NCBI RefSeq assembly: GCF_030704535.1
Contig: NC_081821.1
Location: 5,905,001-5,969,000, forward strand
Length of the DNA stretch: 64,000 nucleotides
Direction: 5' to 3'
Source of the DNA: Vitis vinifera
Lineage: Eukaryota > Streptophyta > Magnoliopsida > Vitales > Vitaceae
The notes under the pieces are model-generated. The model had not been told where the DNA came from. It made no database searches and saw only the letters and a list, made by a program, of their open reading frames with translations. Positions 5,459-56,300 of this stretch are shown here, in pieces (positions within the stretch are counted from its first letter, which is position 1; the number at the start of each line of letters is the position of its first letter). The translations under genes were made by a program, and so were the position numbers.

Positions 5459-7977
5459 CTATTTTGCAGGACCATTGCGTACTTCAGCAGAAGCTCCAGA
5501 TGGGTTGAGCTCATCCCATGCCTCAATCCATGTGACCATGGCATCAGCCAGCTTGATAAAGTATTCATCAACTTTCCCTAGCTTTGCCCTAACTTGCTTG
5601 GAGAGTTCAATGTAGCATTTTTGAACAGTAGTGCATTCCTTCGGAAGAATAACAGACTGGAAAAATGGGATCAGCTCCTCCTGCCAGTAAATACCTTTGT
5701 ACTCCTTTTTAAGGTTCACAAAAGGGTTGCTTGCTTTGCTGTGCCAGATGTAGGGCAGACCTGTCTTGATTCCCAACCCCATGTGGTCACATATGATCTA
5801 CAAGGAAACAAGTCATATGCTCAGCAACAGAAACAACAACAAAAGGGACAAGGAACTTATTGATCTCTAGGGCAGATTTAGAGCAAGTGTGAATAGCTAA
5901 TTAATATGATGGCTAAAACTAGAGTAAGAAAGAGGTAACAATGGTTGGTTCAACATACCTTGGTGCACCAGCCAGCCCACATATCATCGTAGCGTCCAAT
6001 TGGCTGACCATCACCCATAAGTCCAAAGTACATAGCAGGGCCAATCAACTCTCGGTTGAAACCCAGATTCATACCACACATGGGGAAAAGAGTCCCCTTT
6101 GGTATTGTCATAACGGCATCTACATACCTGAAAGAGTATATGAGAAAAAAATTAGAAACAGGATTAACACAGCATACACCAATGTAGCCCAGTGAAGAAA
6201 AAGATAAAGGATGTACCTAGTATTTCTCTCCCGCGGCTTGACAAGCTGGGTGGGGGCATCATAATCTGGGATGTTAAGCCAGAGGCCATGAGAAACAGCT
6301 GTTGGGACACCCTCACGGAGACTAAATGGGTATCCACGGACAAAATCTGCACCATCACGGTAAGGATCATACAGGGTGTTGAAGAAAAATGGGGTGGATG
6401 GGGCCAGAAGGTTCTTTATGTGCTGCTCAAGTGCATTAATGTCTTTGCCAGATGGATCTTTAGCAACCTGGGGAAAAATAAAGAATTCACAACTTAAGAT
6501 TAATATAAAACACCTCTACCGCGTGATAAGTTCCAGGTAGCAATAATAATTGAATCAATAAACTACATGCAAAGCTTTCAAATCCTGACAAGAACAATTC
6601 ACAAGACAGATCAAGCCAAGCAGATAGAACATGCATTTAATCTTAGTATAGTAATATACAATGGCAATGCATCCTAAAAAGAATCAAATATCACACAAAT
6701 TTCAATGCATCACTGTAAAGCCCAATTAGATATGAAGAAATATGTGGGGATTGAATAACAGAAAAGATCTCTCTGTATGTGTCAATTAGCAGAGGTTTTC
6801 AACTTTCACTTCAACAAACAGATCAATTGACCCAAATATGAATTCAGGAAGAACCAACTCACCTGTCAAGTGTCCTTGCCATAGAGTGATTTCAAATTGC
6901 ATTAGAAACATCCTAAAGTCTATTATGGAAAATGTTATGGGAAGATAACAAAGCCATTATTATTTGGTTGCACAAAATTGGATTTGATTTCAAATTCCAG
7001 CTGTGGAATTTGGAAATCTGGCTTTTCAAATGGAACTGTTCCTTAAATTTCAAGCCTACAGATTTCAAATCCAATTGCAAATGCTCAGGTAGATGGAGCA
7101 ACCAAAAGTGTAAGTATCATGAAGCTTCCAATATCCCAAAAGGCAGAAGCCCTAATTTCACGCAGCCCAATCAAGAGGTTTATCTCCAACAATACCATAA
7201 CAGATCGACAAAAATCAATAATTCCTAAAGACTACAAATACATATAGCAAAAATTCGCAGTTTAAAATTCATAATCAGGATCAGATCCAAATTCGAAACT
7301 TTAAAGGCCAAAACCACAGAAATGGCAATAGAAATACAGATCAAAGTCATGTTAATACTAAGAAAAAATAGAAGAAACAGATCCAAATTCATCCATTTTT
7401 CCAAGACCCCAAATTGCCCAAACCACCAAATCAGATTTTCATCAGTCCATCTCAAGAAAACGAAGTACCCACAAATCAAGTCAAGTCAAACCCAAAATCA
7501 CGTCCCAACAGATCAACACAAAAACTAAATTTCAAAACCCGGAACACGTCAAGATCCAAAATCAAAAACCCAAATCCAGAACAAATTGTAGAACAAACAA
7601 AAAGAAAGTAAAAAAACAACCCAAAAGAGTAAAGCAGAAGAAAGGGGAAAAAAACTTACGAAGCAATCGTCATCAATAGTGTAGATGTACTTCTTCTTGG
7701 AAACCAAGTAACCGAAGCAGCGACAAGCAGAGTCCTTGAAGGAAATGCAAGAGGCCTTGGGACCCAGAATTCGGTTAATGTCGTTGCGGTTGTAGAGCTC
7801 GTAGTCAAAGCCATCAGGAACCCTGATGGTCTTTGAAGGATCACCATCTTGGACGATGATGAGATGGTATTGCTGGAAGAACGGCCTCCACATCTCCAAG
7901 AAATCCAAGTTTCTGATCGTGGGTATCACGATATCCAGCTCATCTTTCAGCAGAGGGGTTGCCGGGGTTCCCGCCAT
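5459..7977 (-). CDS. RGP: UDP-arabinopyranose mutase / reversibly glycosylated polypeptide, complete gene
   Basis: The enzyme interconverts UDP-arabinopyranose and UDP-arabinofuranose on the cytosolic face of the Golgi, supplying arabinofuranose for pectin, arabinogalactan and xylan. Four coding exons join in frame on the minus strand: 7977-7660, 6467-6217, 6127-5959 and 5797-5459, all with GT donors and AG acceptors, giving 358 residues (Arabidopsis RGP1 is 357). ATG is at 7975-7977 ([20 protein letters not shown]), stop TAG at 5459-5461. Visible hallmarks: the GT75 core [10 protein letters not shown], the acidic metal-binding cluster IDDDCF (residues 101-106), [12 protein letters not shown] (148-159) containing the arginines around the reversible glycosylation site, and [11 protein letters not shown]. 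The protein is soluble, with no signal peptide. It converges on SPL6. Intron 1 (about 1.2 kb) has no other content. Nothing appears broken. The family is certain; RGP1 versus RGP2 orthology is not resolved by eye. Confidence 0.96.
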
Positions 7978-8110
7978 CACAGATGCAGAGATAGAGAAAT
8001 CAAATTCCAGAAACGAAGACAGAGAGAGAAGGTTGGCTTCGCTTCTGTGCTGTGGAATGTGGAGCCTCTTCGCCTCTATTTGTACTCATATTTGGTGACC
8101 TCTTCTTTCA
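7978..8110 (-). promoter_or_regulatory. 5' UTR and proximal promoter of the RGP gene
   Basis: Upstream of the ATG the minus strand is purine/pyrimidine-biased leader (CTCTCTCT and CTTCG runs) and, near 8075-8090, a weak TATA-like TACAAATAGAGG. The transcription start is inferred, not seen. Confidence 0.35.
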
Positions 8111-11232: not shown

Positions 11233-12588
11233 TTTGACATAAGATATTTGAATAGGCTCGAAATCTTAAGTTACACTCTTACCATAAGATAAAGATTAAA
11301 AACGGTTTGATATGTAATTCTATTCCAAAGAAGATATAAGATGATAGCATGAATACTTTTTTGAAATTATCGATAAAATGTAATGGTGTGATGATCATTC
11401 CAATAAATTTCTTAATTCTTCATTTAGAATTACTTACTTTACCTATAAGTATATTAAAAATAAAATAACACATTTTAAATAATAGATAATGATAAAAGAC
11501 AAATAAAAAATAAAAAGCATATAAATAAATATAAATTAATAATTAAAAAATTATGAAGGATAATCTCTTTTGGAGATATTCATTTGTTGTTTTGTTAAAC
11601 ACCATTTCTTCTATTGTCATTCATTGTTTATTTCGTACACTCGTTAACATGCAATATGCTTGTTTTTATCTCACATTAAACTAAAAATTTAACAATCGAC
11701 CAATCAGGGAAGAAAGATTAATAAGTTATTGAATTTTTTTTCTAAACATAATAGAATTTGTATATCCTAAATATCATATCCATTACATAGAAAATACATA
11801 TCTTAAAATATAATTTTTAATTAGATATGATATCCTTAAATATTAAATTTAATAAATATGATGTTATAAAAGTAGTATATCCCCATGAAATATATTATAT
11901 TATGTTTATTATCTAGTTTTTAAAATAAATAAAAATAAAATGAAATATACTATATAAATAAACATTAAAAATACATATATTAATATTATTTTATAAATAC
12001 TTTTTGGTTATTTTTTAAATACAAATTTAATTTTATAATAACAAAATTTTATTTTTCAAAATAAAAGATTGATAAAAAAATTAATAAATTTATGACACAT
12101 AGTAGATATATATCTTACCTCGTAACTTGAAATTAATATATCTTAATAACCATATGATAGAATATGATATCTCATTTCTCTAATGTAAATCCAACCGATC
12201 AAACATAGATTAAGAATTTGATTTGAGAAACGGAATCTCTTCAACACAAAAATTTATTTTTCCTAATTTGCATTTTTTAATGTCCCTCCTAATCAAACAA
12301 CTATATGAACATATATTTATATTTTCACAAGATTATAAGAAAAGTATAATGTTTTTAAGTTATTGTAAAATCAAGTGTAATGGAGGGTGTCAAGGGCCCA
12401 AGGCAACACTCCACACAAGGGGTGGTGATTGAATCCCAAATTGAATCAAATCAAACAAACGAATCAAGACGTTGCCAGACACGGAAACAAAATGATGATT
12501 CCCATCTACCAAACGAGTCAAGTCACTGAGGAACTGAAAGGGACCACCGCCAGCTCACGAGTGGGTGAAAACCAGAAATACGGAACTG

Positions 12589-12665
12589 CGGAAACCATGG
12601 GCGAAGGTGGTTTCTGGTTTGGAGAAAGGGAAAAACCCAAGAGTGAAGTGGTGAATATAAAAAGG
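12589..12665 (+). promoter_or_regulatory. Promoter of MIR3633b: degenerate palindromes and TATA box
   Basis: The segment GAAACCATGGGCGAAGGTGG is homologous to the promoter module of the next microRNA unit, with one palindrome arm eroded. The TATA box (TATAAAAAGG) is at 12656-12665, about 95 bp before the hairpin. Confidence 0.6.
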
Positions 12666-12736
12666 GGAACGGGGGCACCACCGCCGCCTCGTGCTTTGAG
12701 CCAGACGCTTAGGGTTCATGAGAAATGGGAGTGGTC

Positions 12737-12852
12737 CTCCCGGAGGCCCATGGGAATGGGTGGCTGGGATCTAATGTTTCTTCACATCATGTAGATGTGT
12801 CAAAAAGCTGAGTTGGTTCCCATGCCATCCATTCCTATCGTTCCCGGGATTT
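12737..12852 (+). ncRNA. MIR3633b: MIR482-superfamily precursor, recognised as MIR3633b
   Basis: A foldback joins a 5' arm at 12753-12773 (GGAATGGGTGGCTGGGATCT...) to a 3' arm at 12817-12837 (TTCCCATGCCATCCATTC...). The arms pair over about 21 bp with few mismatches, and a basal TCCCGG/CCGGGA closes the stem. The 3' arm has the miR482/2118 pattern TTCC-CCATCCATTCC. Established for the superfamily: the 22-nt RNA is complementary to the P-loop coding sequence of NLR immune receptor mRNAs and triggers phased siRNAs; vvi-miR3633b is known from grape. It is the first of three tandem units, with its own TATA box upstream. The name is from memory; the family assignment and hairpin are read from sequence. 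Confidence 0.85.
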
Positions 12853-12965
12853 TCTCCCTTTTCTCCTTTTCCCATTTCAAAAAAATTATTTATTTGGTTA
12901 AATTCTTGATTTTGAATGACTCGTGGAAACTGGAAAGCTGGCATGGTGGGCCCAATGTTGTGAGT

Positions 12966-13031
12966 GGTTTTGAAAAACCATGGGCGAAACAAAGGTGGTT
13001 TTAGAAAACCACCTCGTCTGCTCCCATATAA
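12966..13031 (+). promoter_or_regulatory. Promoter of MIR3633a: two palindromes and TATA box
   Basis: Two palindromes, GGTTTTGAAAAACC (12966-12979) and GGTGGTTTTAGAAAACCACC (12994-13013), precede a TATA-like CATATAAC (13025-13032). The same paired arrangement occurs before MIR482. Confidence 0.6.
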
Positions 13032-13092
13032 CGAGTGAGAGAGAATGGGTGGTACTTTAGGTTTTGGCTGCAGGTTTGAAATGGGAGATGAA

Positions 13093-13220
13093 TATTTCGA
13101 AAGCAATAGGAATGGATGGTTAGGAGAGAACTCCTCTTATATATTTCTTCATCTTCTCCGCCGGAGATGTGGAAGTGCAGTTGGTTCCTATACCACCCAT
13201 TCCCTACGGTTTTCGAAATT
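13093..13220 (+). ncRNA. MIR3633a: MIR482-superfamily precursor, recognised as MIR3633a
   Basis: The 5' arm at 13109-13128 (GGAATGGATGGTTAGGAGAG) pairs with the 3' arm at 13185-13206 (TTCCTATACCACCCATTC...). The basal stem continues as TTTCGAAA on both sides (13095 and 13211 regions), giving a long, nearly continuous helix with a loop of about 50 nt that contains a second small stem (CTCCGCCGGAG). The arms match the grape miR3633a-5p and -3p sequences as I remember them. Expected function is targeting of NLR P-loop regions and production of phasiRNAs. It lies about 0.35 kb downstream of MIR3633b in the same orientation. Confidence 0.88.
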
Positions 13221-13797
13221 TTCTCCCTTTTCTCTTGGTGCTCGCTGTTCACAGCTTCCAATTTCTCTTTTCCTTTTTTTTTTTTTTTAATCTAATTTTT
13301 TCATTTGATTTTGTTAGGTGTTGAAGTTATGGAGATTTTTTTTAAATTTATTTTTTTGTTGTTTCTGAAAAGAATTTTGACATCTCTGATCTAATACGAA
13401 TGACGCAAGTGATTTTTTATTTTTATTTTCATGTCAAAGATATAAACTCCTATTAAAAAAAGGAAAAAAAAAAACCAATTTTAGATTGGTTTCATCCGTC
13501 GAACGCACACCCCTTCAGGCTTTGACACAAAATAAATAAATAAAATAAAATAAATAAATAAAGGTAAAACTGAAAATTTGAATAACAAGACTGTGGACAC
13601 GAGCATGCCCAACAAAAAAACAAAAGACTTCCTTCAAACCTTAACCTGGTACTTGGAACCAATAAAATATTTTTATATTTATTTAAATCATAATTATCAC
13701 AAGTTATAACATAACCAATAAAATATTAAATTAAAGCCGTTGATGATAAATGTTAAATAAGAGTAAGAATTGAAAACCTTTCTGGAAGGAGACATGG

Positions 13798-14000
13798 CAC
13801 GTGATGTGCATCACGTGATATTAGGTTTCAAAATTCTGGCATCACGTGTATTAGGTTTCAAAATTCAGACAAAAATGTGATTATAATATTCCACAATTTA
13901 CAAAAAAGCTCAGCTCACGATGAGTGAAAGGATAAAATCAGTGTATGGATGACAAAAAGAAAAAGAAAAAGACCAAATAAAAGTGAGGCCATGACACGTG
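13798..14000 (+). promoter_or_regulatory. Cluster of four G-boxes upstream of MIR482
   Basis: CACGTG occurs at 13798-13803, 13812-13817, 13843-13848 and 13995-14000. The second and third sit in a 31-bp tandem repeat sharing CACGTG and TTAGGTTTCAAAATTC. CACGTG is the core bound by bHLH (PIF, MYC) and bZIP (HY5, ABF) factors; the regulatory role here is inferred from density and position. Confidence 0.5.
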
Positions 14001-14021
14001 AAAAGCAATAGACCCTGAAGC

Positions 14022-14115
14022 GGTTTTGCAAAACCATGTGCTGTGATCCACACCGAAAGGCGGTTTTGTAAAACCACTACCACCAGGCCTGAAAACAAAG
14101 TTTTGTATATAAAAG
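14022..14115 (+). promoter_or_regulatory. Promoter of MIR482: paired palindromes and TATA box
   Basis: Perfect palindrome GGTTTTGCAAAACC (14022-14035) and near-palindrome GGTTTTGTAAAACC (14062-14075) stand 40 bp apart and are followed by TATATAAAAG (14106-14115), about 77 bp before the hairpin. Confidence 0.65.
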
Positions 14116-14191
14116 AGGGGATAAGCAAGCGGGATGATGGTGAGCTCAAGAGACGGATCGTGGGTCTGAAGTGTGAAGTCGTTTGTTTCCT

Positions 14192-14311
14192 GAGAATGTT
14201 TGGGAATTGGAGAGTAGGAAAGCTTAGCCATCTATTCCCTTCATGGTTTCCTCTCCATGGATTGGGGGTCTAGAGCTAGTCTTTCCTACTCCTCCCATTC
14301 CTATTGTTTTC
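14192..14311 (+). ncRNA. MIR482: MIR482 precursor
   Basis: The 3' arm at 14280-14301 starts TCTTTCCTACTCCTCCCATT and, as I remember the entry, is identical to grape miR482. The 5' arm GAGAATGTTTGGGAATTGG...AGTAGGAAAGC (from 14192) is colinear with the reverse complement of the 3' arm over 37 positions without gaps, a textbook plant miRNA stem. The loop spans about 45 nt. Role known for the family: a 22-nt miRNA against NLR resistance-gene P-loop sequence, initiating secondary phased siRNAs. It is the third unit of the cluster with its own TATA box; G-boxes lie further upstream. The host transcript has no visible open reading frame. Confidence 0.93.
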
Positions 14312-15019
14312 GGGGATTTCCGTTTCTCTTCTCTTAACAATTTTTTTTTCTTCTATTACTATTATTATTTGTTTTGATCATGACCCATATGTTTTCTTCT
14401 TCATTTCTGTTTTGTAGATCTCGTTCGGGTTTCTAAGAGATTTTTCTGGGCTCATAAACCAAGCAAGATCTACTTGACTGGACAGACCGGCTGTGATATC
14501 TTTGTTTCTGTGGACTCAGATCCTATGCCGGTTTTCAGATTGGGTTATGATTTTTATGTACATGTACGATGAGAAATTTAAGGAAGAATGGTGGATTCAT
14601 TAATAACAACGTATTGAAATTATCTTTGCTGTATGTGTAAATCTGTAGAGTCTTTTGTATAGTAATCGCGCTTTGGCAAAGAAGAAATTAATTAAAGAGG
14701 ATGAAGATGGATTTCGAACTAAAAGGCACCAGGATGGGATTGAAGATGCAGGCATATGGGATATGGGAGAAATGGGGAGCGCACTACAGCCACCCATATT
14801 TGAGGATGAAGAGGGCACTTGGTGGGGGACGCTACCCATTCAATGGCTGGTCACCCCTGCAACCTCACTGCCAAGTGAGGCGGCAGATCCCTATTCGACC
14901 ATCAAATTATTGTGCCCCATTAGTCGCCTTGAGGCATCTTTTCACCTCCATTCAATTGCCATATACACTCAAAAGAGTCATTTCAAACATTTTTGTCTTT
15001 GCCTATACTGAGTCGTTCT
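14312..15019 (+). other. Downstream of MIR482; possible pri-miRNA exons, no coding gene recognised
   Basis: A pyrimidine-rich tract ending TTTTGTAG at about 14417 looks like a splice acceptor, so the MIR482 primary transcript may be spliced. The 118- and 128-residue open frames at 14655-15087 overlap each other and resemble nothing I know. Confidence 0.3.
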
Positions 15020-17540: not shown

Positions 17541-18381
17541 GATTAGTACCTGCGAGGATTGAGAGTGGCAGAGGAAAATAGGGCCTTTTCAGGGATTCTC
17601 TCTTCAGGAAACTAACCCAATCGAATATGGGTTAGATTTGGCTTGGGACATAATGGGATGGACATGGGCTAAGAAATAAGTAATCCGGTCAATGGTGGGA
17701 GCAGCCACTGACCAGGGATACTGTTTCTTGTTCCATGGAAACATCCCACACTGAGGATTAGTACCTGCGAGGATTGGGAGTGGCAGAGGAAAATAGGGCC
17801 TTTTCAGGGATTCTCTCTTCAGGAAACTAGCCCAATCGAATATGGGTTAGATTTGGCTTGGGACATAATGGGATGGACAATGGCTAAGAAATAAGTAATC
17901 TGGTCAATGGTGGGAGCAGCCACTGACCAGGGATACTGTTTCTTGTTCCAAGGAAACATCCCACACTGTTGCAGGAGGAATCCAACTGTTATTGACTTTC
18001 TCCATGGAGCCCCTTACACCCAACAGATTGCTTGTTGCTGCAAGGGTGGTGTTCTGGCATCACAGGGACATGATTCCAGAGTTGCAGTTTCAGCTTAGCG
18101 GTGGGCTTTCGGGCACTTCAAATGAAACAGTGAGACTGCCCAAGAATTTCACTTTGCTGGGTCCAGGGACAGGCTTCACATGCAGCCAAGCAACCATTGA
18201 AGCTCCTTCACTTTCCCTCTCCTCTGATGGCCGGCGAAAAACTTACTAAGTTAAGTATTTTTCCTTCCTAAGCTTAAATGCTAAATTCTAGTACCATTTC
18301 AACTCATATCTTCTTGCTTTCAATTTTTGTTTGCAATGACGGAGTGTGAAGTGCACCTACTCACAGCTGGTGGCCTTATGG
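17541..18381 (+). pseudogene. COBRA-like pseudogene 1 (truncated exon 3 with internal duplication)
   Basis: The translated remains (NIPHCCRRNPTVIDFLHGAP, YTQQIACCCKGGVL, LPKNFTLLGPGTGFTCSQAT) match exon 3 of the neighbouring intact COBRA-like gene at 23.4 kb, the closest relative by RRNPTVID. The signal peptide exon and exon 2 are absent. The first part is duplicated in tandem: 17541-17753 is repeated from 17756 (offset 215 bp). The frame is broken: the TGGGCTAAGAAA codons run into TAAGTAATC where the intact gene has AAAGAAGTAATC, giving a stop, and a shift follows near 18095. After the exon-3 donor region the copy keeps about 130 bp of intron and the first bases of exon 4, then stops at 18381 where the next copy's leader begins. 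Certain to be non-functional as a COBRA protein. Confidence 0.88.
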
Positions 18382-18410
18382 ATTCTCTCGTCTGGAGGGC
18401 AACTTCAGAA

Positions 18411-19957
18411 AAGGGCTTCTTGATGCCCGAGGAAAATAGGGCCTTTTTCATGAGGGTAAAATGGGATTCTTCACTGGTTTGCAACCTGGAACCAAATCCA
18501 ACGAGATTTTGGAGATTATGGATGGTGTAAATGATTGGGTTTGGGAAAATAATGAAACTAACCCAACTGAATATGGATTAGATTTGGCTTGGGACATAAT
18601 GGGATGGACATGGACTAAGAAAGAAGTAATCTGGTCAATGGTGGTAGCAGCCACTGACCAGGGATACTGTTTCTTGTTCCAAGGAAACATCCCACACTGT
18701 TGCAGGAGGAATCCAACTGTTATTGACTTGCTCCATGGAGCTCCTTACACCCAACAGATTGCTGGTTGCTGCAAGGGTGGTGTTCTGGCATTACAGGGAC
18801 ATGATCCCAGAGCTGCAGTCTGACTTAGCGTTGGGCTTTCGGGCACTTCAAACAAAACAATGAGACTGCCCAAGAATTTCACTTTGCTGGGTCCAGGGAC
18901 AGGCTACACATGCAGCCAAGCAACCATTGAAGCTCCTTCACTTTACCTCTCCTCTGATGGCCGGCGAAAAACCTACTGAGTAAGTTAAGTTTTTTTCCTT
19001 CCTAAGCGTAAATGCTAAATTCTAGTACCATTTCAACTCATATCTTCTTGCTTTCAATTTTCCTTTGCAATGACGGAGTGTGAAGTGCACATACTCACAG
19101 CTGGCGGCCTCTGCAAAACCAAGATGCTGCGTCTCCTTCTCGTCTTTTTGCAGCGATATCATCACTCCTTGTCCATCTTGTGCTTGTGCTTGCCAGAATG
19201 AGAACAACTGTGTCATGTAAGCCTCTTGTAAAGTTTCAATTCAAGGATTAGTTTGTCTTTGTGTGATACGAATACTATGGAGTGTAAATGCAGAAGTGGT
19301 TCAAAGATTACGAGTAAGGTGGAAATGAACACAACTATAGAGGACGCCGAGCTGAAGCTGAAATGCACACAGCATATGTGTCCAATCCGGGTGCACTGGC
19401 ATGTGAAGGCCAACTACGTACAAGGAGTATTGGCGTGTGAAGATTGCCATTACCAATTTCATCTACAAAATGAAGATTGCCCTTCTGCAGCATCCAAATC
19501 TCAACAATGTTGCCCAAGTTTACAGCTTTGTGTACAAGCCGCTAGTCCCATACAAATCCATTAGTAAGTGCTTATGACTCAATGTCCTTGATTTTGTTGT
19601 TGGTTGAAGCCAATCGAGCCTGATTCTAACTTGTATATATATGCAGATGACACTGGTATATTTTATGGCATAAAGTACTATAATGACATTTTAAGGGAAG
19701 CTGGACCCCAGAGGGGAACGTGCAGTCAGAGTTGATTTTTCGAAAGGACATGGGCATATTTACATTGAAGCAGGGGGGTGGGGTGTTTCCGCATAAAGTC
19801 TATTTCAAATGGGGATAAAGTCTATTTCAAATGGGGATGAGTGCATGATGCCAGCTCCAGATTCAAATCCACTCCTGCCAAACTCTGCTCGTGTCAATCC
19901 AATTTCTTATTCCACTCTGCCTGTGTCCGTGGTACTGATACTGCTACTCATCAGCTG
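18411..19957 (+). pseudogene. COBRA-like pseudogene 2 (exons 3-6, 5'-truncated)
   Basis: Remains of exons 3 to 6 follow in order: about 18580-18965, 19070-19217, 19283-19563 and 19647-19957. Recognisable pieces are KKEVIWSMVVAATDQG, GNIPHCCRRNPTVIDLLHG, RCCVSFSSFCSDI and the exon-6 block DTGIFYGIKYYNDILREAG. Exon 3 has an early stop (GCAGTCTGA, 18817-18822), exon 5 has suffered small insertions or deletions, and in exon 6 a 22-bp piece (AAAGTCTATTTCAAATGGGG plus AT) is duplicated in tandem near 19796-19838. Its leader (GAGGAAAATAGGGCC, 18429) is shared with both units of pseudogene 1, so the three units arose by serial unequal duplication. There is no signal peptide or exon 2. Confidence 0.88.
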
Positions 19958-23432: not shown

Positions 23433-25221
23433 ATGCTTCTGAGAATGGAATTCAATAGAGTTGCATACTCAATTGTCTCAGCTGTCTTCTTTAGTATGGT
23501 CTTATCTCCTGCAGGTGAGGCACTAACTCAAGAAATCTAAATTAGGAACTTAATTTGACTTCCGTTCTTCTCATATGTTTTTCTTTGGGGGTTCTCTGTT
23601 TTGATTCCAGTGGCATATGATCCGCTGGATCCAAATGGGAACATAACGATCAAATGGGATGTTATGTCTTGGACCTCAGATGGTTATGTGGTGAGTACAC
23701 TCAATTTGGTGACGTTTTCCTTCCTTCTAGCAAGTGATCATCTAGCTCTCATCACATGCAAGCATCACAATTTGATTACTTCTCAGGCAGTGGTGACAAT
23801 GAGCAACTTCCAAATGTATCGGCACATCATGAGCCCTGGTTGGACCTTAGGATGGATATGGGCTAAGAAAGAAGTAATCTGGTCTATGGTGGGAGCGCAA
23901 GCTACTGAACAAGGAGACTGTTCAAAGTTCAAAGGGAACATCCCACACTGTTGTAAGAGGAATCCCACAGTGATCGACTTGCTGCCTGGAGTCCCTTACA
24001 ACCAACAAATTGCCAATTGTTGCAAGGGAGGCGTTGTAGCATCATGGGGCCAGGACTCGTCTGCTGCAGTCTCATCCTTTCAACTGAGTGTCGGGCTTTC
24101 TGGCACGTCAAATAAAACAGTAAGACTGCCCAAGAATTTTACTTTGCTTGGTCCAGGACCTGGCTACACTTGTGGCCAAGCAAAAACTGTGCCATCCTCC
24201 ATCTTCCTCTCTTCAGATGGCCGGAGAAAAACTCAGGCATTGAGTAAGTCTCATTCTCCAATATTTAACTAAATATTCGTCTCTAGTCCTTAGTCCTTAC
24301 CATTAATTTTTTTTTTTCTTCTGCTTCCGCAGTGACATGGAATGTTACATGTACTTACTCACAGATGGTGGTCTCCAAGTATCCAAGCTGCTGTGTCTCC
24401 TTCTCATCTTTTTACAACTCAACAATCACCCCTTGTACATCCTGTGCCTGTGGTTGCCAGAACAAAAACAACTGCATCATGTAAGCCTTCAATTCAGTAG
24501 CATAAATGTAAGAATATGTGCTTGTTTTTACTCATAAATGTTTCTTATTGGGGGGTACAATGCAGGAGTGATACAAAAATTGAGAGCGTGGTGGGACTAC
24601 ACACTCCAACAAAGGATAATATGCCGCTGCTGCAGTGTACTCAACACAATTGCCCAGTCCGGGTGCACTGGCATGTGAAGGTCAATTACAAGGAGTATTG
24701 GCGTGTGAAGATTACCATCACTAATTTTAACTACAGAATGAACTACACGCAGTGGACGCTGGTTGCTCAGCATCCCAATCTGAATAATATCACACAAGTT
24801 TTCAGCTTTGCTTACAAGCCACTCATTCCATACACGTCCATAAGTAAGTCCATACATTCCCATAACACAGCATTATGCTACATGCCATGTCCAACTGAAA
24901 TTATGAGGGCATAACTCCTGCTATTTTGATTGGGCAGATGACTCAGGTATGTTTTACGGCATAAAGTTCTATAATGATGTGCTAATGGAAGATGGGCCAG
25001 ATGGAAACGTCCAGTCTGAAATGATTCTTCAGAAGGACAAGAACACATTCACATTGAAGGAGGGTTGGGCTTTCCCTCAGAGAATTTACTTCAATGGTGA
25101 TGAATGCATGATGCCCCTTCCTGACTCGTACCCTTTGTTGGCGGGCTCTGCCCCTGCAAATCAAATTGCATTATCAACACTGGCTTCCCTAGTACTTTTG
25201 ATATTGCTAGCATTTCAGTGA
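23433..25221 (+). CDS. COBRA-like GPI-anchored protein, complete gene (tandem paralogue of the COBL4 type)
   Basis: COBRA family proteins sit on the outer face of the plasma membrane and guide cellulose microfibril deposition. Six exons join in frame: 23433-23514, 23611-23690, 23787-24243, 24333-24480, 24566-24843 and 24938-25221, giving 442 residues (438 if the second ATG, 23445, is used). Layout: signal peptide (VAYSIVSAVFFSMVLSPA), a cellulose-binding-like N-terminal domain (YDPLDPNGNITIKWDVMSW), a cysteine-rich centre with the family signature CCVS (SCCVSFSSFYN), the block VRVHWHVKVNYKEYWRVKI, then GMFYGIKFYND and GWAFPQRIYFNGDECMM, and a hydrophobic C-terminal tail (LSTLASLVLLILLAF) after small residues, fitting a GPI signal. 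Many NxT/S sites are present. All splice sites are GT-AG. It is more diverged than the COBL4-type gene at 32.8 kb and is the likely source of the pseudogenes upstream. A CACTA element lies 115 bp after the stop. Confidence 0.93.
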
Positions 25222-29541: not shown

Positions 29542-30805
29542 ATGATTAAAGAAATATGTAAGAGCTACATTCTTCAATGTTGTGGAAATTTGTTTAGAAG
29601 CTATAGAAATAAAATGAAGGCCAAGTATTATAACCCTTATAATACAGATGAGGAGAGATTGTGCCATCGACCTCCACACTTATCGGATGATGATTGGAGG
29701 TGGCTCATCCACTTTTGGGGTACACCTGAGGCCAAGGTAAAGATAATGATCTTTTCTTGATAATGTATCTTATGATACTCATATTCACATAAAATGATAT
29801 TTATTAGTTATATCTAACCTAATACTTCATGTATATAACTTTTATTATGTTTCTATTACCTATATAGGTAACTTGCTATTTTTTAATTGATGTAGGATAT
29901 CTCAGAAAAAAACAAGGCAAATAGGGCAAAACAAGTGATAAAGCATACATCGGGATCAAAAAGTTATGCTCAAATTCGATATGAACAGGTTGAAATTTAT
30001 TATTAATATGATTTGTTTGTACATAAATAATTCATCATAAATAACTCAATTGTTTTACTTATAAGAATAGGCACAAAAGAAGGAGGATCGAAGTGAGCCC
30101 AATAGAATTGAGATGTTTGCCCTGACACACACAAGAAAAGATGGGACGCCTGTTGATGATCATTCTAAGGAGATTATGGTAATGAAGTAAATAAATTTTA
30201 TATACTTGTATCTCAGTCATAGCCTCATACTAAATTATTTTAAAAGTCTAACAATTTTTTATTTTTTATAATTCCAGGATCAATTTCAACAATTACTATC
30301 TCAACCTGAGGGGACATCTTCTTCTACTTCTGCATCATCTGGAGCATCTACATCTGTATCATCTACATCTATAGCATCTACATCTGTAGCATCTACATAT
30401 GTAGATGAGATATATACTCAAGTCATGGGTCCAGAGAGGCATGGTCGTGTTCGAGGGTATGGATTTGGTCCTACTCCTACCTCAATCTTTGGTTCTACTA
30501 GTAGGAGACGATTAGGAGTTATTCTTTCAACACAACTTGAAAACGCCCAAGAGATGTTAATAGCTGCAGAACAAAAGTTTACAACTGCAACTGAAGAACT
30601 CTCAAATGTGAAAGATGAACTCTCACATGTGAAAGAAACATTTGAAGAGGTGTTGATAGAAGTTCAAAAGAAGACACGTGAAGAAGTGAAAGAAGAGTTT
30701 GAAGAAAAAATGATGGAAATGCAAAGAAAAATGCAAGCACAAATGCAAGCACAAATTCAAGAACAGATGATGCAAATGATGCAACAATTTCAGCAAAAGC
30801 AGTAG
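29542..30805 (+). CDS. TNPA-like transposon protein (plant Transposase_24 / Ptta-En/Spm type)
   Basis: Four exons can be joined in frame with GT-AG introns: 29542-29736, 29896-29988, 30071-30178 and 30278-30805, giving about 307 residues. Exon 1 has the family pattern YYNPYNTDEERLCHRPPHLS followed by DDWRWLIHFW; exons 2-3 have NKANRAKQVIKHTSGSKSYA and RIEMFALTHTRKDGTPVDD, both typical of the Ptta/En/Spm plant transposase domain. The C-terminal exon has a serine/threonine-rich linker (ASTSVSSTSIASTSVAST) and a long, Glu/Lys/Gln/Met-rich coiled coil from about residue 220 to the end. Known role in En/Spm: binding the subterminal repeats and helping excision. The first ATG used is the earliest in the open stretch; an upstream non-coding exon is likely. 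No stops interrupt it. Confidence 0.8.
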
Positions 30806-31209: not shown

Positions 31210-31810
31210 AACATATTTTAGTCACGGCCACTAAAAAATTGTGACCATAAGTGTGCTTTTAGTCACGCTTAAAATGAATCGTCACCAAAAGTTAGGGAGA
31301 GCGGTCATAATACACTTAATGTTTAGTCACGGTCACTTAATTATTGTGACCATATACCTATATTTAGTCACGATTAGGGGCATTGACCGTGACAAAAAGT
31401 TGGCATTTAGTCACGGTTAGGGGCATTGACCGTGACCAAAAGTTGGCATTTAGTCACGGTTAGGGGCATTGACCGTGACCAAAAGTTGACATTTGGTCAC
31501 GGTTAGAGGCATTGACCGTGACCAAAAGGTAACATTTGGTCACGGTTAGAGGCATTGACCGTGACCAAAAGTTGATATTTAGTCACGGTCATTTTATTAA
31601 CCGTGACTATAGACTTACATGTAGTCACGGTTAGGGTACTGACCGTGACCAAAGGTTAAACATATAGTCACGGTTTATTACCTGACCGTGACCAATACCT
31701 TTAGCTACGCCTCATACTGTGACGCTCGGTCACGGTTTCATAAGACCGCGACAATAGGTTTTGGTCACGGATATATACGATTTGGTGACGGTTGGCGACC
31801 GTCACCAAAA
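31210..31810. repeat. Right subterminal array of the CACTA element, with five exact-period 43-bp units
   Basis: The motifs match the left array. Between about 31360 and 31576 five units recur with a constant 43-bp period (ATTGACCGT at 31382, 31425, 31468, 31511 and 31554), each holding TAGTCACGGTTAGGGGCATT and CCGTGACCAAAAG, so every unit is also an inverted pair. Confidence 0.9.
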
Positions 31811-32848: not shown

Positions 32849-34970
32849 ATGGAATTCAACAATTCTGCAAACCCAGTTCACCATACTCCCTTCGAAGCTA
32901 AAGATCGTTGCCAATGGCAGGACTGTTACTCATTCAGGGAGTTGAAGCACATTTTCTCAGTTGTCATATTTTTCATGATGGTTTCTCATGCAAGTAAGGT
33001 TCCCAAACTTGGACATTAGATTTTCTTTTCTGGCAGTGGCTTACATTTTTCTATCTGTTTGTTCACTCTTTCTATTGCTTCTGTGATTTTAGTTGCCTAT
33101 GATCCACTGGATCCAACCGGAAACATAACAATAAAATGGGATGTTGTGTCTTGGACCCCAGATGGTTACGTGGTGAGTAAATCTCTGTTTTGATGGTCTG
33201 TATCATTATTTAGTATCAAACAACCAACTTATCCATTGCTCGCTGGATCTATACACCAATTAATTGTCAATATTCTGGAGCAAAGTCTAAAAGCAGGTAA
33301 AAAATCATCCAACAAGAGAACTTAGAATTATGCAACAACCTTCAGGCCCAATTATGAACTGTAAATTATAGTTTCTTTTCCCACCTCTTTCTTGGCAATT
33401 AACATGGCTTTCAAGAAGATCCCAAAACAATTCTTGAACAAATCACCAACGAATCAAACATCATTTAATCGAGTTCTTCCAGGCTCTGGTGACTATGAAC
33501 AACTTCCAAATGTACCGGCACATCATGACCCCTGGCTGGACCCTATCATGGTCATGGGCTAAGAAAGAAGTGATCTGGTCAATGGTGGGAGCCCAAACAA
33601 CAGAGCAAGGAGACTGTTCCAAGTTCAAAGCGAACATACCACACTGCTGTGAGAAAACCCCAACAGTTGTTGACTTGCTTCCTGGAGTTCCTTACAACCA
33701 ACAAATTGCCAATTGTTGCAAGGCTGGTGTGGTGGCCGCCTGGGGGCAGGATCCTGCAGGATCAGTCTCCTCCTTTCAGGTGAGCGTTGGGCAAGCTGGG
33801 ACTTCAAACAAAACAGTGAAACTTCCCAAGAATTTCACTTTGCTTGGTCCAGGACCAGGATACACTTGTGGCCCTGCCAAAATTGTCCCCTCCACCATCT
33901 ACTTGACTCCTGATCATAGACGAAAAACTCAAGCAATGAGTATGTCTCTTCTTCACTGATCTTTTCAGATACCTATCCTTTTATTCTTCTTTTATTGTTT
34001 TGAAGGTCTTCTGACTGAAAATGGAAATCATCTGTTTGATAATATTTTCCATTTGGCAGTGACTTGGAATGTTACCTGCACCTATTCTCAGTTTCTGGCG
34101 TCCAAAAACCCCACCTGTTGTGTTTCCTTCTCAAGTTTTTACAATGATACCATGACCCCATGCCCATCCTGCGCGTGTGGTTGCCGCAACAAGAACATGT
34201 GTATCTCGTAAGCCTCTCATTCAGTCTCATGCAGCACAGCACAATTGAAAATGCATATATATGCTTGTCGATCTGCTTTTCATTGAATATAATTGTGGAT
34301 ACGCAGAAGTGACTCAAAGAAACTGAAGGCGTTACACAATCCAAAGAGGAGCAATACACCATTGCTACAATGCACACATCATATGTGTCCCATACGGGTG
34401 CACTGGCATGTCAAGCTCAACTACAAGGATTATTGGCGAGTGAAGATCGCCATTACTAATTTTAACTATCGGATGAATTATACACAGTGGACACTTGTTG
34501 CACAGCATCCCAATCTCAACAATGTCACACAAGTATTTAGCTTTGATTACAAGCCTCTTGTCCCCTATGAATCCATAAGTGAGTGCAAACCTACTTCAAA
34601 TGCTTTTTCATCCAGAGCTGCAAAAACCCAGATTCAAACTCAATTTCTAATAAGATTTTCTAACTAGTTCACGGTATTTGCAGATGACACTGGTATGTTC
34701 TATGGCATGAAATTCTACAATGACCTACTAGTGGAAGCCGGACAGCATGGAAATGTCCAGTCTGAGGTGCTTCTTCAGAAGAACAAGGATACATTTACTT
34801 TCAAGCAGGGATGGGCATTCCCTCGAAAAGTTTATTTTAATGGTGATGAGTGCAAGCTGCCCCCGCCTGATACATATCCATTTTTACCAAACTCTGCCCA
34901 TGCAAATCCATTTGCCTTTTGGACAATGGCAGCTCCTCTGCTTTTGATGATACTGTACACCATTTGGTGA
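32849..34970 (+). CDS. COBL4: COBRA-like protein 4-type (COBL4), complete gene
   Basis: Predicted GPI-anchored extracellular protein; COBL4 (IRX6 in Arabidopsis, BC1 in rice) is needed for cellulose in secondary walls. Six GT-AG exons join in frame: 32849-32993, 33093-33172, 33483-33939, 34060-34207, 34307-34578 and 34684-34970, giving 462 residues. Exon lengths of 80, 457 and 148 nt equal those of the sister gene at 23.4 kb. Seen: YDPLDPTGNITIKWDVVSW, WAKKEVIWSMVGAQTTEQG, the CCVS signature (TCCVSFSSFYNDTMTPCPSC), HWHVKLNYKDYWRVKIAITN, GWAFPRKVYFNGDECKLPPP and a hydrophobic tail (FWTMAAPLLLMILYTIW). Odd: about 33 hydrophilic residues (MEFNNSANPVHHTPFEAKD...) precede the hydrophobic signal (IFSVVIFFMMVSHA), longer than the usual leader. 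Orthology to COBL4 rather than COBL1/2 is by motif comparison from memory and by neighbourhood to the RGP gene. Confidence 0.94.
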
Positions 34971-35878: not shown

Positions 35879-37542
35879 CTAAGCATAAGCCAATACAATG
35901 ACAGAAACTGCCAAGATTGTCAAGATTGAGTAAAGGAGAGAGACAGTGGGTCGGGAGCTGGCATTTGGCAACCATGGGTAGGCATCTGGTGGAGGCATGA
36001 CGCAATTATCACCATTGAAATAAATTCTTCGAGGGAAAGCCCATCCCTTATCAAAAGTGAAAGTTGCTTTATCCTTTCGAAATAGTAGCTCTGACTGCAC
36101 ATTCCCAAGAGGACCAGCTTGAGAGAGCAAATCATTGTAAAACTTGACTCCCCATAACATGGCAGTGTCATCTGTATAACCAAAATTCATATTCACAAGA
36201 TGTTAGGATTAAGACGAACAGTTGCATGTTTTTTATTTAAAAAGCTGGCAGACAACAACTTTGCAAAACCAAATCTTGAGAAGATATGACGTACTTATGG
36301 CTGCATAAGGAGTTAATGACTTGTAATTAAAACTGAAAATCTGTGTGAGATTATCAAAGTTGGGATGTTGAACAACAAGATTCCATTGGGTGTAGTTCAT
36401 TCTGTAATTGAAATTTGTGATTGTGATCTTCACCCGCCAGTAATCCTTGTAGTTGAGCTTAACATGCCAATGGACACGGATTGGGCACATATGGCTGGTA
36501 CACTGGACGAGAGGCTGATAACTGGTTTTACCTGAGCCTTCAACGACTGAAGCTAAATATGGATTGTTTGGGCTGTAAAACAGCAACAAAAGAAAAGGAA
36601 AAAAAATCATGAGAAAATCATTACTGATTGCACTGACAACACTGAAAATGCAAATTTAGAAAAGAAAGAAAAATGGTGAAATAATGGCAGCAAAAAAGAC
36701 ACTCAATGTAACTTACTCTACACAGCTCCCTGGATGAGTTAGATTATTTTGACAGCCACAGGTGCAAGTTGGGCAGGATACTATAGTGTTATTATAGAAC
36801 GATGACAATGAGACACAACATGTAGGCGTCTTCTGAGCCAGGAATTGTGAATACGTGCAAGTAACATTCCAAGTCACTGCCATAGGACAGGAAGATTAGA
36901 TTAGTTAAATCTTGAGAACTCTTTAAATGCATATTAAGAACACAAATTATCCATTGTCAATGTGTCTTGCCATCCTGTTTCAGCCAGTGGTCCATTTAGA
37001 AGGACTACTCGATGAACATACTGGAATATATCTAATATTTGTTGACTAATGAATAAATACCGTAGCAGCTGCTCACCTGTTGGTCTATTTATACAAGTTG
37101 CTATATGAACATATTTGCATTTATCCATATTATTGGCTAATGAACAGGAGTATCATAGTGTCGGCTAAAAATCAATTGCACGACTACTTACGCAAAGTTC
37201 AAGGATTTCACCTGTTGGTCCATTAGATGAAGTGCTAAATGAACATACTGGCATATATGTACATCATTAGCTAATGAATGGGAACGTCGTAGAACTGGCC
37301 AAAAGCACTAGTGAGTTAACTTACTCAAAGCCTGAGTGACTCTCCTCTGATCCGCCGTGGTAAACTTGGTTGGTTTTACAATCTTGGCAGGCCCACAAGT
37401 ATATCCAGGCCCTGGAGCTCTCAACGTGAAGTTCTTTGGCAATTTGACAGTTTTGTTGGTAGTCCCAGCTGCACCCACACTGACCTGGAATGAGCTTGCT
37501 GCATTAGCTGGGTCCTGGACCCATGAGTTTATAACACCCCCT

Positions 37543-37580
<38 letters not shown>

Positions 37581-39134
37581 TGGCAGTAAATCCACAACTG
37601 TTGGATCCTTTTTACAGCAATGTGGTACATTCCCTTTGAATCTTGAACAATCCCCTTGTTCTGTTGTTTGTCCTCCCATCATACTCCAGATTACTTCCTT
37701 TTTGGCCCATGACCATCCAAGTGACCACCCTGGTGCTTGAATGTGGCGATATTGCTGGAAGTTGAACATTGTAACAACAGCCTGCCCAACATGAATAAAA
37801 AGATTAGATCATAACTAGAAAACAATTGAAATGTAAGTGGAATCCATTCATGGGCAAAGGCAAGTGGATGCTTGAACAAGGTTCACTATTGCAATCAAAA
37901 TATTTTGTAGTTTAATATTTTACTTACAACATAACCATCTGGAGTCCAGCTCATTACATCCCACTTGATGGTGATATTTCCCTCTGGATCAAGCGAATCG
38001 TAGGCTTCTGCAGAAACATCCACCAAAGAAAGATGAATACCTCAATTCTTAAGATTCTCATGACATTAAATTTCATAAAGGGAGAGTTCAATCTTTTCTT
38101 TTTTTGGTTAAATTACACCTCAATTTTCTTACTGTGATGTAAGAGTCAAAACAAACAAAATAAATATGCTTGAGTTGCATTGATACTAGATCTCTGATAT
38201 ACATGAAAATTCATGTATCGACCCTCCATAAAAACCATTTTTCTACTCTTTTACATCTCTGTACAGATCCAAGAAACAATTGAAAAATCTCCTTGGGTAA
38301 ATGAAGGAAATGGGAAATGCACCCTATTTGAAAATCTCTCCAACTCCTTTTTCTCTTCAAAGATTAGTAGTGAGGATTTACCAATGATCATGAAATAAGA
38401 AAAGGGCAATAAAAATACTAGTAAAAAGAAGTGAAAATAAGAGAGAAAAGCATGTATCTGTTTCTCTGTTTCAAGTATATATATGAAAATTTCACTTTCA
38501 ATTACAATGATCACAATTCCTTCTTCTCTTTCAATTACTATACCACAAAATGCATTCTTCCATGCAATCAGGAGATAATTGTCCAATTTTAACCACAAAC
38601 AAATAATATAAGCAATATAATTCCAATTTTAAAAAATAAAAATGAAAAAAATAAAAAAACCTCTTGCTTGCTATATGCAGCTCACTTAGAATAAAAGATC
38701 TCGGTTGTTTTATGTCTCAACTGAGAAATCCCCAAGCTAATTCCCCAGAACTAACTGAATTTTTGCCTTCCTATGCTTATTTCCATTCATTTATGAATCA
38801 GATCAAACTCTGAATCAATGAAACAGAGCTTCAACTCCAATCCTCACCAACCCCACAAATTTTCCACAACCCAATCCTGCTAACACCCTTCATTCCATCC
38901 ATTCCCATACCTATCTTTTATTTCTCCTACAAATTCCCCCGAAAAATGGGATGGTAGCATAGAAATAAGAAACACACTTCCAAAACACAATATTCGAAAA
39001 AAATGGTAAATGGTGGCATCTGGGTCATCACCTGTAGAAGTGAAAATGGAGCAAGAAAACAACAACACAAGCAAAATGGCGTAACTGCTGAGCTTGGTGA
39101 TGGATCTGGCAATGGATGTGAAGAAAAACTCCAT
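35879..39134 (-). CDS. COB: COBRA (COB) orthologue, GPI-anchored cell-expansion protein, complete gene
   Basis: Six exons join in frame on the minus strand: 39134-39032, 38007-37928, 37781-37325, 36876-36717, 36572-36295 and 36171-35879, giving 456 residues, the same length as Arabidopsis COB. Seen in order: signal peptide (SYAILLVLLFSCSIFTST), EAYDSLDPEGNITIKWDVMSW, MFNFQQYRHIQAPGWSLGW, NSWVQDPANAASSFQVSVGA, CCVS signature (TPTCCVSLSSFYNNTIV), ASVVEGSGKTSYQPLVQCTS, DTAMLWGVKFYNDLLSQAGP, GWAFPRRIYFNGDNCVMPPP and a hydrophobic GPI tail (LLYSILTILAVSVIVLAYA). FNFQ, NSWVQDP, AMLWG and DNCVMPPP separate the COB/COBL1/COBL2 clade from COBL4. COB orients cellulose microfibrils in expanding root cells. 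Introns 1 (1.0 kb) and 3 (0.45 kb) are plain. Convergent with COBL4. Nothing broken. Confidence 0.95.
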
Positions 39135-41186: not shown

Positions 41187-42566
41187 AATATTTGACAAAA
41201 TTTTAAAGAATCTTTAAGGTGATTTTAAAACCACCCTTGATAAATACTATTTTTAAGAACAACCTTTTTAATGTTACATATTTCTAAAAAGATTAGGATA
41301 TATATGTATATGGCACAAATTAAGAGAATTTTTTTCTAAAATATTCATAAATGTGCCTTAAATCCATGAATTTGGACAATTATACCATTGTAAGTTTTTA
41401 TTAGTTCTAAAAAAAATATTATCTAGAATTAAGAAAAGATAAAGAAAGTGATAATTTTTTTTCAAATGTTCAATATTTATTTTTTCAAATTTTGTTGGAG
41501 ATATTGTGCACATTGCTTAAATCAACCTTAATTTGGAATAAAGAAATCATTATTGTATTTATAGGAGCTCAAAAGTTATTCTTCTTAATTCATGTCATTT
41601 TTTTTCATTTTTACCCTTCTTAATTCATCATTTCCCTTTTTCCAAACCATGGCAGCTCTACATGACCCACACTTCCAAGAAAGTATGTTCTGGTTATATA
41701 CCAAGTGGACAAAAGAATTGGAATTCATCTCCTCCACATCCTTAGGACCCTAACTTCATCTTCAAGATCACCCTTCATTATTCTCATTTCCAAGCTAGTT
41801 TAAGACTTCCTTTCACCTTTTCATATGATGATTCAACCCATTCTTCTAGTTTTTTCATGTCAAATCCGTTATAATATCATCTATCTACTATCATGCCCTC
41901 GGGGCATGACAGTCATTTTATACCTCAAACCCAAAGACTCAAAGTAGAAACGACACAAACATTTATATTGTAACTAAAAATTTATCAATTACCAAATTCA
42001 TGTTCAGAGTAGTAGGACAAAATTCTAAAATCTCCAAGTATCAACTTTAAAAAAACTAATATATCAATCAAAGTGTTGTTATCCAAATAACCCCAAACTC
42101 AAATAATTCAACAAGAAATAAGTTTTAACATCTAAATAATGTACAACATAAAGAGAGTTTAAACAAATGTCCTAATAAAGCCAAATTTCTCTCCTAAGAG
42201 TCACTTATCGCCCGAACTGAGGTTACCTGAAATATTATCAAAAAATGGGATGAACTCAAAGCCCAATAAGAAACATTAATATAGTTTCCTAGATAAAATA
42301 TTTTCAATCATGCTTGCAAATAGGAGATATAACATATATTTATTTTCATAAAAACTTTTGAGTTCAAAATACTAATACATTCAAACTTTTCAACAAAACT
42401 TTCTTATATCCATTTCAAAACAATTTCTTATCAAAACCAAATCGAATACATTCAAAATATCTTTACTCTGGTTATCGTATGACAAATGGTGTCCAATTAG
42501 GTGGGACTTCACAATTAAGTAACTAGTTTCAAATTTTCTCAATTTAAGGTGAATAAAACCAAATGT
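41187..42566. other. Repeat-rich spacer
   Basis: No gene. The palindrome CATGCCCTCGGGGCATG (41892-41908) is the only sharp landmark; read on the minus strand it begins TGTCATGCCCCGA, like some plant LTR starts. Confidence 0.35.
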
Positions 42567-42712
42567 CAACAATTATAACCCGTTGACTAGGGTCATAAGG
42601 TCAACTATTATAACCCGTTGACTAGGGTCATATAATATCAACTATTATAACCCGTTGATTAGGGCCATAGAAATGTTAACAATTATAACTCGTTGACTAG
42701 GTCATATAATCT
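42567..42712. repeat. Four tandem copies of a short repeat (unit about 36-42 bp)
   Basis: Units share TATAACCCGTTGACTAGGGT followed by CATA; the fourth is the most diverged. Confidence 0.85.
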
Positions 42713-53300: not shown

Positions 53301-56300
53301 CACAGCGTGTGGTCTTTCCCCAACTTCATCTTCATCCGCTAAAACACCCACCCCAAGATATCTTCCCACTGACACCACCTGAGAAAACCAAGGCAGGGTT
53401 TCCCACCACAGTTAAATGGAGAAACTCCCCGACCCAACCACAATCTGAATAGAGCTAGGTAAATCCCTACCAACCAACTTCACCAAAATTCTAGCCCATT
53501 GCAACTCTGTGAAGCCGTATTCTCATCCACTGCAATGAAACATCCACAACCATCTCTTATCAATTTAAACACCTCGCAGCTCCAAAGATGAAGAGGGAGA
53601 CCCACCACCCTCACCCAAGCCTCGTTAGCGATGGCTCCATTACAAAAGCACCCCACCTCCGGGTTCCATTTTTCCAAAAATAAAACGTTCTCCTTAACTC
53701 TCCTCTTGCTTCTAGCTAGGACTCGCTTAACCTCACTTAACAACTCAAACTCAAATAGCAGAAGTCCTCTTCCCAACACAGCTATGTTCAAACTCCCTTT
53801 GAGGAGCCAATTGTGATAAGCCCAACTCTTTAGAAAATCCAACTCAGGGAAAGGGATTGAGAAGTTTCCCCACCGGCCCACCAAATAGCGATCCAACTGT
53901 TCCAATCTTCCTTGCATCTCCCTCCTCCCCAACTCCAACCAGATTTTGTCTCCTAACCTACCCGTTTTCGATTTTGCAACATCCGCAAAAGTCCTTGGTT
54001 CCAACTCCTTTTCCTTCCTAAACACCTCAAGGGATTGAGAATCCTTTAAGCCTCCAGAGGGAACGACCCCAGTCTCTCTCAACTTCTCTGCCAAGATATT
54101 CCAGCTTCCAATCAACCCCTTCCTTTCTAGAAAAATTAGACAAAATCTTTTTGCCTCTAGATCATGAACAGAGCAAAGAAGAAATCTTCCCGCCTCGTTT
54201 GAGCGACGCTCCAGCCTATACTTCCTTCCCCCCTCCTCCCAAACGAGGGACCAACTTCTATTGTCACTCCTTCTACAGTAAGTCTCAACTCCATCCAACA
54301 AACTACTAAGGCTTGCATCCCCAAATCTGATCCAGGAAGGTAGCCCTCTGCATCTCTCCCAAATGCACCTTCTCAACTTCCCTCCTACATCGTCAACCAA
54401 AAGCTCAAAAGATTTGGATTCCACAGCAAACCATCTTCTTTCACCCGTGTGGCCTTCCTTCATCTCCATACCCTTCAAACCTCTATATTGAAGTACCAAT
54501 TCTCCAAGGAATCATAATCATATTCTATTGCTTTATCATTCTCCCCATTATTATTAATGTCCACCTATTCTTTTTCTTCATCCATCAATTGCAGTGATAT
54601 TTTTCCTCATCCATTAATAATAAGATAATGATTATATATGAGCTCAACCACTAGAGTGGCCAACAATTTTCCTATTTCTTCTATTAAATCATTCCTTTTC
54701 CCTTATCTTTAAAAGGTTAATTGGAAGTTAACTAAACCCTTATTTTGTAAAAGGTTTTAACTCAAGCCTAGACCTAAGCCAAAACTTAATTTATACCAAT
54801 AGTCCACAAAAGCATAAAACCATTAAAACTCTTGAATAATAAGGATTAAACCTCCTATAAAATATATATATCCAAAAGCACACAAAGGTCCAAAATCTAT
54901 TAAAATCCTTTGAATATTTGATGCTTAGGCCTCAACAAGGTGAGGCTTAAGCCTTAATTGCCCTGACTGAGGTTGTAGCTTCAAGGCTAATTTGGAGAGC
55001 CTCCCATTGAGGGTGGCCTCAAGGCATACGCCTCAATAACTTTTTAAAACACTAGCCTTCATTCACAATTAGTTTTAGGAAGGATGGGGAGGATTCTTTT
55101 CATTGGAAGGTGTTTACGAAGTGGTGCTTCTTAGAGAATCTTTTTCAAAAGTGCTCTCCCTGAACATCTATTCTATCTTCAATTCTTCACATTGTTGGTG
55201 GTTAAGGGCTATGATCGCTTGTGTAAGATGGGGTTTCTTGCTTGGGAAATGTGTTTTGTTGTGATTGGAGATTCTCTCCATTGCTTCTCTCTTGTGTAAA
55301 AGGAATAACTATGGTGAAATTGTTGCTGTTACCTGGCATACCTGCAATTCATAGCTCCTTCATTACAACATTGTTGAGTTTTTGTAGGCTTTGCTATTCT
55401 CTATTTTTAGCAGATAGTGGTCTTTTTTTATGTTTTTTCTTTCCTTCTGCGGGAGGATGCTTTAGCTTGTTGAAATGGTAGTTGTGCTTGAAAAAGCGCA
55501 AAGGAAAGTGTGGAGATGGCACTACTGAAGTATTTTTTTGGTGTTGCTGTGAGGAGCATAATAAGAGGAGTTATGAAGGGGCAAAGATGTCTATTGTTCA
55601 TCTTTGGGGGAGCTTGTCTTTTCTTGAGTTCATTGAGAGTTGTGTGTAGGGCTAACCTTGTACACTTGTTCCACTCTTTCTTTTTGTTGTATCCTTGTAT
55701 AGTTCCTTTGTACTAGGGTTTGCCCTCATAATGGCACTCTGTGTGTGTGTGTGTGTGTGATATGTAATTTTGGACAAGTTGATGAAACTTCCTAGAAGTT
55801 GGTTCTCCAATGTTTTGCAAAATCTGTTAACATCTTGATTCTCTATATGTTCCCTTACTGCTTGCTATTCATTTCTGCATATTTTCTCACTAAAGATGTC
55901 CTCCCACTTGCAGTTTGTTAATTGTCTTCAAATTGTATTCCCAAGTTGCATTTTTCATATTTTTCCTTTTTGGGTCATAATTCCAGGGTCCACGTCATTA
56001 TCTCATGTTTTGTGGTTGCTATGCTTGAGTTAACTTATTTGCATTAGGAAATATGGGCCACCCATATTCCCAAATATGATAAAGGTCAACTGCAATATCT
56101 GATTATGGAAATCCTAAAATGAAGTTGCTAATGCGTTTCTTTTGCCTACCAGTGCTGTGCATGATACAAAAGGCTCATCAAAGAGTTTTCCAAAGCATGA
56201 GACTCGGCATGTTTCAGAGCACAAGGTACTCATGTATAGGAAAATTCTTACATCATATGCTTTCTCTGCATTAGAATGCTAATTGCTTGCTTCTTGGCTT

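Follow-up and report, generated by a model that had tools for sequence, protein, structure and literature searches.

Three tandem MIR482/MIR3633 hairpins of grapevine with related upstream elements, probably transcribed from more than one promoter

MicroRNAs of the miR482/2118 superfamily keep entire families of immune receptors repressed in plants, and where their genes are clustered, the mode of transcription decides whether the members can be tuned separately. This question, one transcript or several, is raised by three hairpins in a window of 64,000 nucleotides of Vitis vinifera DNA (NC_081821.1, positions 5,905,001 to 5,969,000; all positions below are counted from the start of this window). 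An earlier reading, made from the sequence only, had assigned a promoter of its own to each hairpin. Our analysis makes it probable, at roughly seven in ten, that the array consists of three paralogous miR482/2118 microRNA genes built from a duplicated unit, with MIR482 and MIR3633b transcribed from their own TATA promoters, and MIR3633a from a weak-TATA start of its own, by read-through from MIR3633b about 240 nt upstream, or by both. The unit, roughly 0.3 kb of upstream element, core promoter and hairpin, would have been duplicated in tandem to yield the three paralogues.

By sequence match, the array is the known series vvi-MIR3633b, vvi-MIR3633a and vvi-MIR482 on grapevine chr17, the locus tabulated in PMC5050227. 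Each of the six mature sequences printed there matches the window exactly and once, which supports the MIR482/MIR3633 family named in the sequence-only reading. They follow one another in the order and on the strand given by the published chr17 plus-strand coordinates (5,521,557, 5,521,913 and 5,523,009 for vvi-miR3633b, vvi-miR3633a and vvi-miR482, respectively), and at the same distances (356 and 1096 nt). The window therefore represents grapevine chr17 and its microRNA genes are already known: hairpins, positions and small RNAs were in print before this analysis, and the published hairpins do not differ from those of the window. Four miR482 RACE primers of PMC2831844 also match exactly, at 14299-14602. 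That study reports abundant miR482 precursors, both by Illumina and by poly(A)+ 454 sequencing, and states that it could not detect mature miR482 in its data sets of leaf or berry.

The hairpins of MIR3633b (12737-12852; 5p 12753-12772, 3p 12816-12837), MIR3633a (13090-13223; 5p 13109-13128, 3p 13185-13206) and MIR482 (14188-14318; 5p 14205-14225, 3p 14280-14301) are all located on the plus strand. Each folds better than all of 200 dinucleotide shuffles, with minimum free energies of -61.4 kcal/mol for MIR3633b (12722-12851, z -5.2), -47.0 kcal/mol for MIR3633a (13075-13216, z -3.4) and -63.3 kcal/mol for MIR482 (14188-14318, z -6.6), which confirms the three foldbacks of one orientation within 1.7 kb that had been noticed before. 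Folding is hardly poorer for the antisense strands (z -5.0, -3.7 and -3.9 in the same order, equalled by 0, 1 and 0 of 200 shuffles); the assignment to the plus strand therefore rests on published reads and not on folding. In the predicted folds, 19 of 20 (miR3633b), 17 of 20 (miR3633a) and 19 of 21 (miR482) 5p bases are paired, and 2-nt 3' overhangs are found at five of the six duplex ends, one of these, in miR482, read across a mismatch; the remaining end, that of miR3633b-5p (annotated with 20 nt), has a 1-nt overhang. By the usual criteria for plant MIRNA genes, all three are stable hairpins with extensively paired arms, and the duplexes show the characteristic overhangs at the ends just given. 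A search with Rfam models, which may lack one for miR482/2118, gives no match in the window at gathering score.

Chance foldbacks, or inverted repeats derived from NLR genes, could imitate such hairpins, and two features would fit: the likeness of the arms to NLR P-loop codons, and antisense strands of nearly the same folding quality. Against this origin stand the overhang geometry and the fold z-scores, and it is contradicted by published reads. The table of PMC5050227 includes an abundance value for every arm of the three hairpins (5p/3p: 10,270/5610 for miR3633b, 45,786/1469 for miR3633a, 139,166/42,801 for miR482), so the read stacks whose absence had been named as decisive against the array are on record, and PMC6366190 provides a second data set with four of the six strands. 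We have rejected this explanation as hardly conceivable. Just upstream of the MIR3633a hairpin, a 15-nt stretch at 13040-13054, AGAGAATGGGTGGTA, is complementary (93%) to part of miR3633a-3p; it is possibly left over from a second 5p arm, or may serve as another partner for pairing.

Each of the 3p strands has a length of 22 nt and is complementary to P-loop-like codons of the NLR type, the complements reading in one frame as GMGGVGK (miR482), GMGGIG (miR3633a) and GMDGMG (miR3633b); the P-loop character formerly ascribed to the 3' arms is thereby upheld. The usual P-loop motif is GxGGxGKT, to which GMDGMG fits less well. It is plausible that the three units are spread over different NLR P-loop codon variants. 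Strands of the miR482/2118 family are reported to cut NLR mRNAs and to start phased siRNAs (PMC4700956, PMC4457045). As established for the family, Pol II transcripts of the array would be processed by DCL1, and the 22-nt 3p strands of the resulting duplexes would guide cleavage of NLR mRNAs at their P-loop codons and start phased siRNAs; the three units together would cover the codon variants listed above. The one target of the array shown by cleavage mapping in the literature examined is not an NLR: GA3ox2, cut by miR3633a-5p in 9 of 17 clones (PMC9369392). Apart from the minus-strand matches of the arms to themselves, the six strands find no target site in the window with a score better than 5.0, and therefore no local target is claimed. 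The forward primer given for "miR3633a" qRT-PCR in PMC9369392 maps to 12927-12946, in the MIR3633b-MIR3633a spacer and outside the microRNA, some 160 nt before the mature strand; either it is a misprint, or the assay did not measure mature miR3633a.

A related element stands upstream of each hairpin. The composite AAACCATG-N0-40-AAGGYGGTTT, drawn post hoc from the three-way alignment after a version with a gap of 5-30 had missed the MIR3633b unit, matches at 12592, 12975 and 14031 only when both strands of the window are searched, and none of 20000 shuffles of 12551-12736 contains it. The MIR3633b copy, AAACCATGGGCGAAGGTGGTTTCTGGTTT (12592-12620, plus strand), also recovered in the alignments, keeps the inner half-sites, and its outer halves are without palindrome. 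In the copies belonging to MIR3633a and MIR482, each half is part of a full, perfect GGTTTTNNAAAACC dyad, and the dyads form pairs on the plus strand: GGTTTTGAAAAACC (12966-12979) and GGTTTTAGAAAACC (12997-13010) before MIR3633a, within 12963-13014, and GGTTTTGCAAAACC (14022-14035) and GGTTTTGTAAAACC (14062-14075) before MIR482, within 14019-14081. The two copies of a pair are 31-40 bp apart and located just upstream of the TATA box. These four are the only perfect GGTTTTNNAAAACC dyads of the whole window (shuffle mean 0.02, maximum 1, n=200); with one mismatch allowed, a fifth dyad of this type occurs at 40869.

Local alignments of the upstream regions score 40 between MIR3633a and MIR482 (reached by 0 of 2000 shuffles), 31 between MIR3633b and MIR3633a (3 of 2000) and 26 between MIR3633b and MIR482 (20 of 2000). 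As a natural control, the MIR3633b promoter was set against further 200-nt segments from the window, in 1236 comparisons, and scores up to 33. Because this exceeds the scores with its own neighbours, the alignment score of MIR3633b is by itself no proof of homology, and the homology suggested for this unit is based on order and position of the elements. With this qualification, the alignments and the composite bear out the homologous promoter modules that the sequence-only reading had described, and these modules support a duplication of promoter plus hairpin.

The core promoters are less uniform. MIR3633b possesses a TATA box TATAAAA at 12656-12662 (7/7 to TATAWAW; 6 of 2000 shuffles) and MIR482 a TATA box TATATAAAA at 14106-14114 (7/7; 25 of 2000 shuffles), both on the plus strand. 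MIR3633a has a weak TATA-like CATATAAC at 13025-13032 (plus strand), with 6/7 at best to TATAWAW and equalled by 270 of 2000 shuffles. An own TATA box for every unit, as formerly proposed, thus stands for 12656 and 14106, and at 13026 only the weak CATATAAC is found. The proposed distance of 75-100 bp between TATA box and hairpin likewise holds for the first and third unit (81 and 86 bp in the coordinates of that proposal) and fails for the second (67 bp). A model of three equal promoters was rejected for the weakness of the MIR3633a TATA. The idea of one promoter per unit is thus partly supported, by the upstream modules and by a strong TATA box at two of three units, and a separate start for each unit is putative.

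The spacers measure about 240 nt (MIR3633b-MIR3633a) and about 960 nt (MIR3633a-MIR482). The latter has a GC content of 0.26, versus 0.42-0.50 in the hairpins, and 13 AATAAA-like matches, partly in simple repeats, are present between 13452 and 13976, before MIR482; between 12831 and 13451 there are none. Four G-boxes CACGTG (13798, 13812, 13843 and 13995; plus strand, 13798-14000) lie upstream of MIR482, two of them inside a 30-bp tandem duplication (13808-13866). Shuffles of 13220-14187 contain 0.07 G-boxes on average, and 0 of 2000 reach four; the whole window holds seven, more than half of them upstream of MIR482.

These features bear on two arrangements with fewer transcripts. In the first, one polycistron from the MIR3633b promoter would carry all three hairpins, the downstream modules being relics of the duplication. 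It has parallels in other plants: the Salicaceae MIR482-MIR1448 pair, like the grapevine array a tandem duplication of MIR482 with diverged arms, is described as one transcript, 12 ESTs containing both precursors in the case of poplar (PMC3475693), and Aquilegia is reported to have two polycistronic clusters of miR2118/482. Furthermore, in the copper table of PMC6366190 the three 3p strands and miR3633a-5p fall together (log2 -1.34, -1.52, -2.10 and -2.04), a pattern that one transcript would produce, but a fall is also seen in several further miRNAs. However, the two Salicaceae hairpins are just 80 nt apart, whereas the three of grapevine are separated by about 0.24 and 0.96 kb and have promoter-like modules in the intervals. 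The second spacer is AT-rich with its many poly(A)-like matches, MIR482 has a strong TATA, perfect dyads and G-boxes of its own, and the 3p ratio of miR482 to miR3633b is about 551:1 in PMC6366190 versus 7.6:1 in PMC5050227, the methods of the two studies being different. A polycistron of three hairpins thus appears improbable, and independent transcription of MIR482 is likely.

The second arrangement concerns the first two hairpins, which may form a dicistron started from the TATA box at 12656, with MIR482 as a separate gene. The short first spacer, the MIR3633a TATA equalled by so many shuffles and the lack of AATAAA-like matches in 12831-13451 agree with it. On the other hand, MIR3633a has kept both perfect dyads, which are absent from MIR3633b, and the 3p ratio of MIR3633a to MIR3633b moves from 1126:23 (49:1) in the control library of PMC6366190 to 1469:5610 (0.26:1) in the berry data of PMC5050227, a 190-fold shift between laboratories with different methods. 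The relative output of the units is thus not fixed, which, across these differing methods, counts for separate control. PMC6366190 contradicts itself on this point, as miR3633b-3p is listed in its table and its discussion declares miR3633b undetected. In tobacco, PMC9369392 obtained GUS expression from roughly 1.5 kb of sequence preceding MIR3633a; this fragment does not isolate the MIR3633a unit, because its stated length would include MIR3633b and its promoter. We regard the dicistron as unlikely, though deserving of weight. In the preferred reading of three duplicated genes, MIR3633b presumably has its own start, and independent transcription of MIR3633a is uncertain.

With genes, positions and small RNAs catalogued, the paired dyads alone are fresh, as far as the accessible parts of the literature go. 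The common upstream element finds no mention in the portion of PMC5050227 available to us, nor is the paired-dyad element met in the other accessible literature on the array; a search with the dyad letters in a largely open-access collection gave unrelated papers. We take the common paired-dyad element as a small fresh detail, which may help to switch two of the units on. A further-reaching interpretation, possible and offered tentatively, sees in the GGTTTTNNAAAACC pair a dedicated enhancer that would bind two dimers of one transcription factor and was copied together with the hairpins, giving the NLR-silencing microRNAs one switch. The units would then have been tuned apart by loss of the outer half-sites (MIR3633b), by the weak TATA (MIR3633a) and by added G-boxes (MIR482). 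Should the paired dyads act as such a common switch, the degree to which NLRs are silenced in grapevine would depend on one transcription factor. The array would then offer a compact natural experiment on promoter divergence after gene duplication. Further MIR482/2118 candidates of grape are listed in PMC7278995, at chr1:3865584 and chr14:19755490. Tandem arrays of miR482 are known already from poplar and tomato; tomato miR482a/b/d/g on chromosome 6 comprise four tandem miR482/2118 genes within 8.2 kb, whose predicted targets differ among the members (PMC4700956).

The surroundings of the array contain no NB-ARC/NLR neighbour according to a Pfam search of 52 stop-to-stop ORFs of at least 100 aa in the window; this search yields COBRA-like, reversibly glycosylated polypeptide and transposon domains. 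An INTS1_RP2B-bd match antisense to MIR482 (E 0.0081, below its cutoff) was set aside as chance. Upstream of the array, the minus strand at 5462-8085 carries parts of a gene for a reversibly glycosylated polypeptide (Pfam RGP). COBRA-like stretches (Pfam COBRA/COB_C) are found at 17899-19561, 23559-25218 and 33438-34967 on the plus strand and at 35882-37808 on the minus strand, and these four constitute a local cluster of COBRA-like genes. The first of them consists of two COBRA-domain pieces in reversed order and may be rearranged; adjoining these pieces, a 215-bp unit forms two tandem repeats at 17541-17968, a duplication taken as recent because the repeats match at 97%. Two further tandem arrays, at 31362-31675 (43-bp unit, 7.3 copies) and 42562-42710 (37-bp unit, 4.1 copies), both possess GTTGAC/GTCAAC-type motifs. 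A Transposase_24 domain is present at 30272-30802, near the 43-bp array, and a DUF4283 domain, common in plant retroelements, at 53483-54511 on the minus strand.
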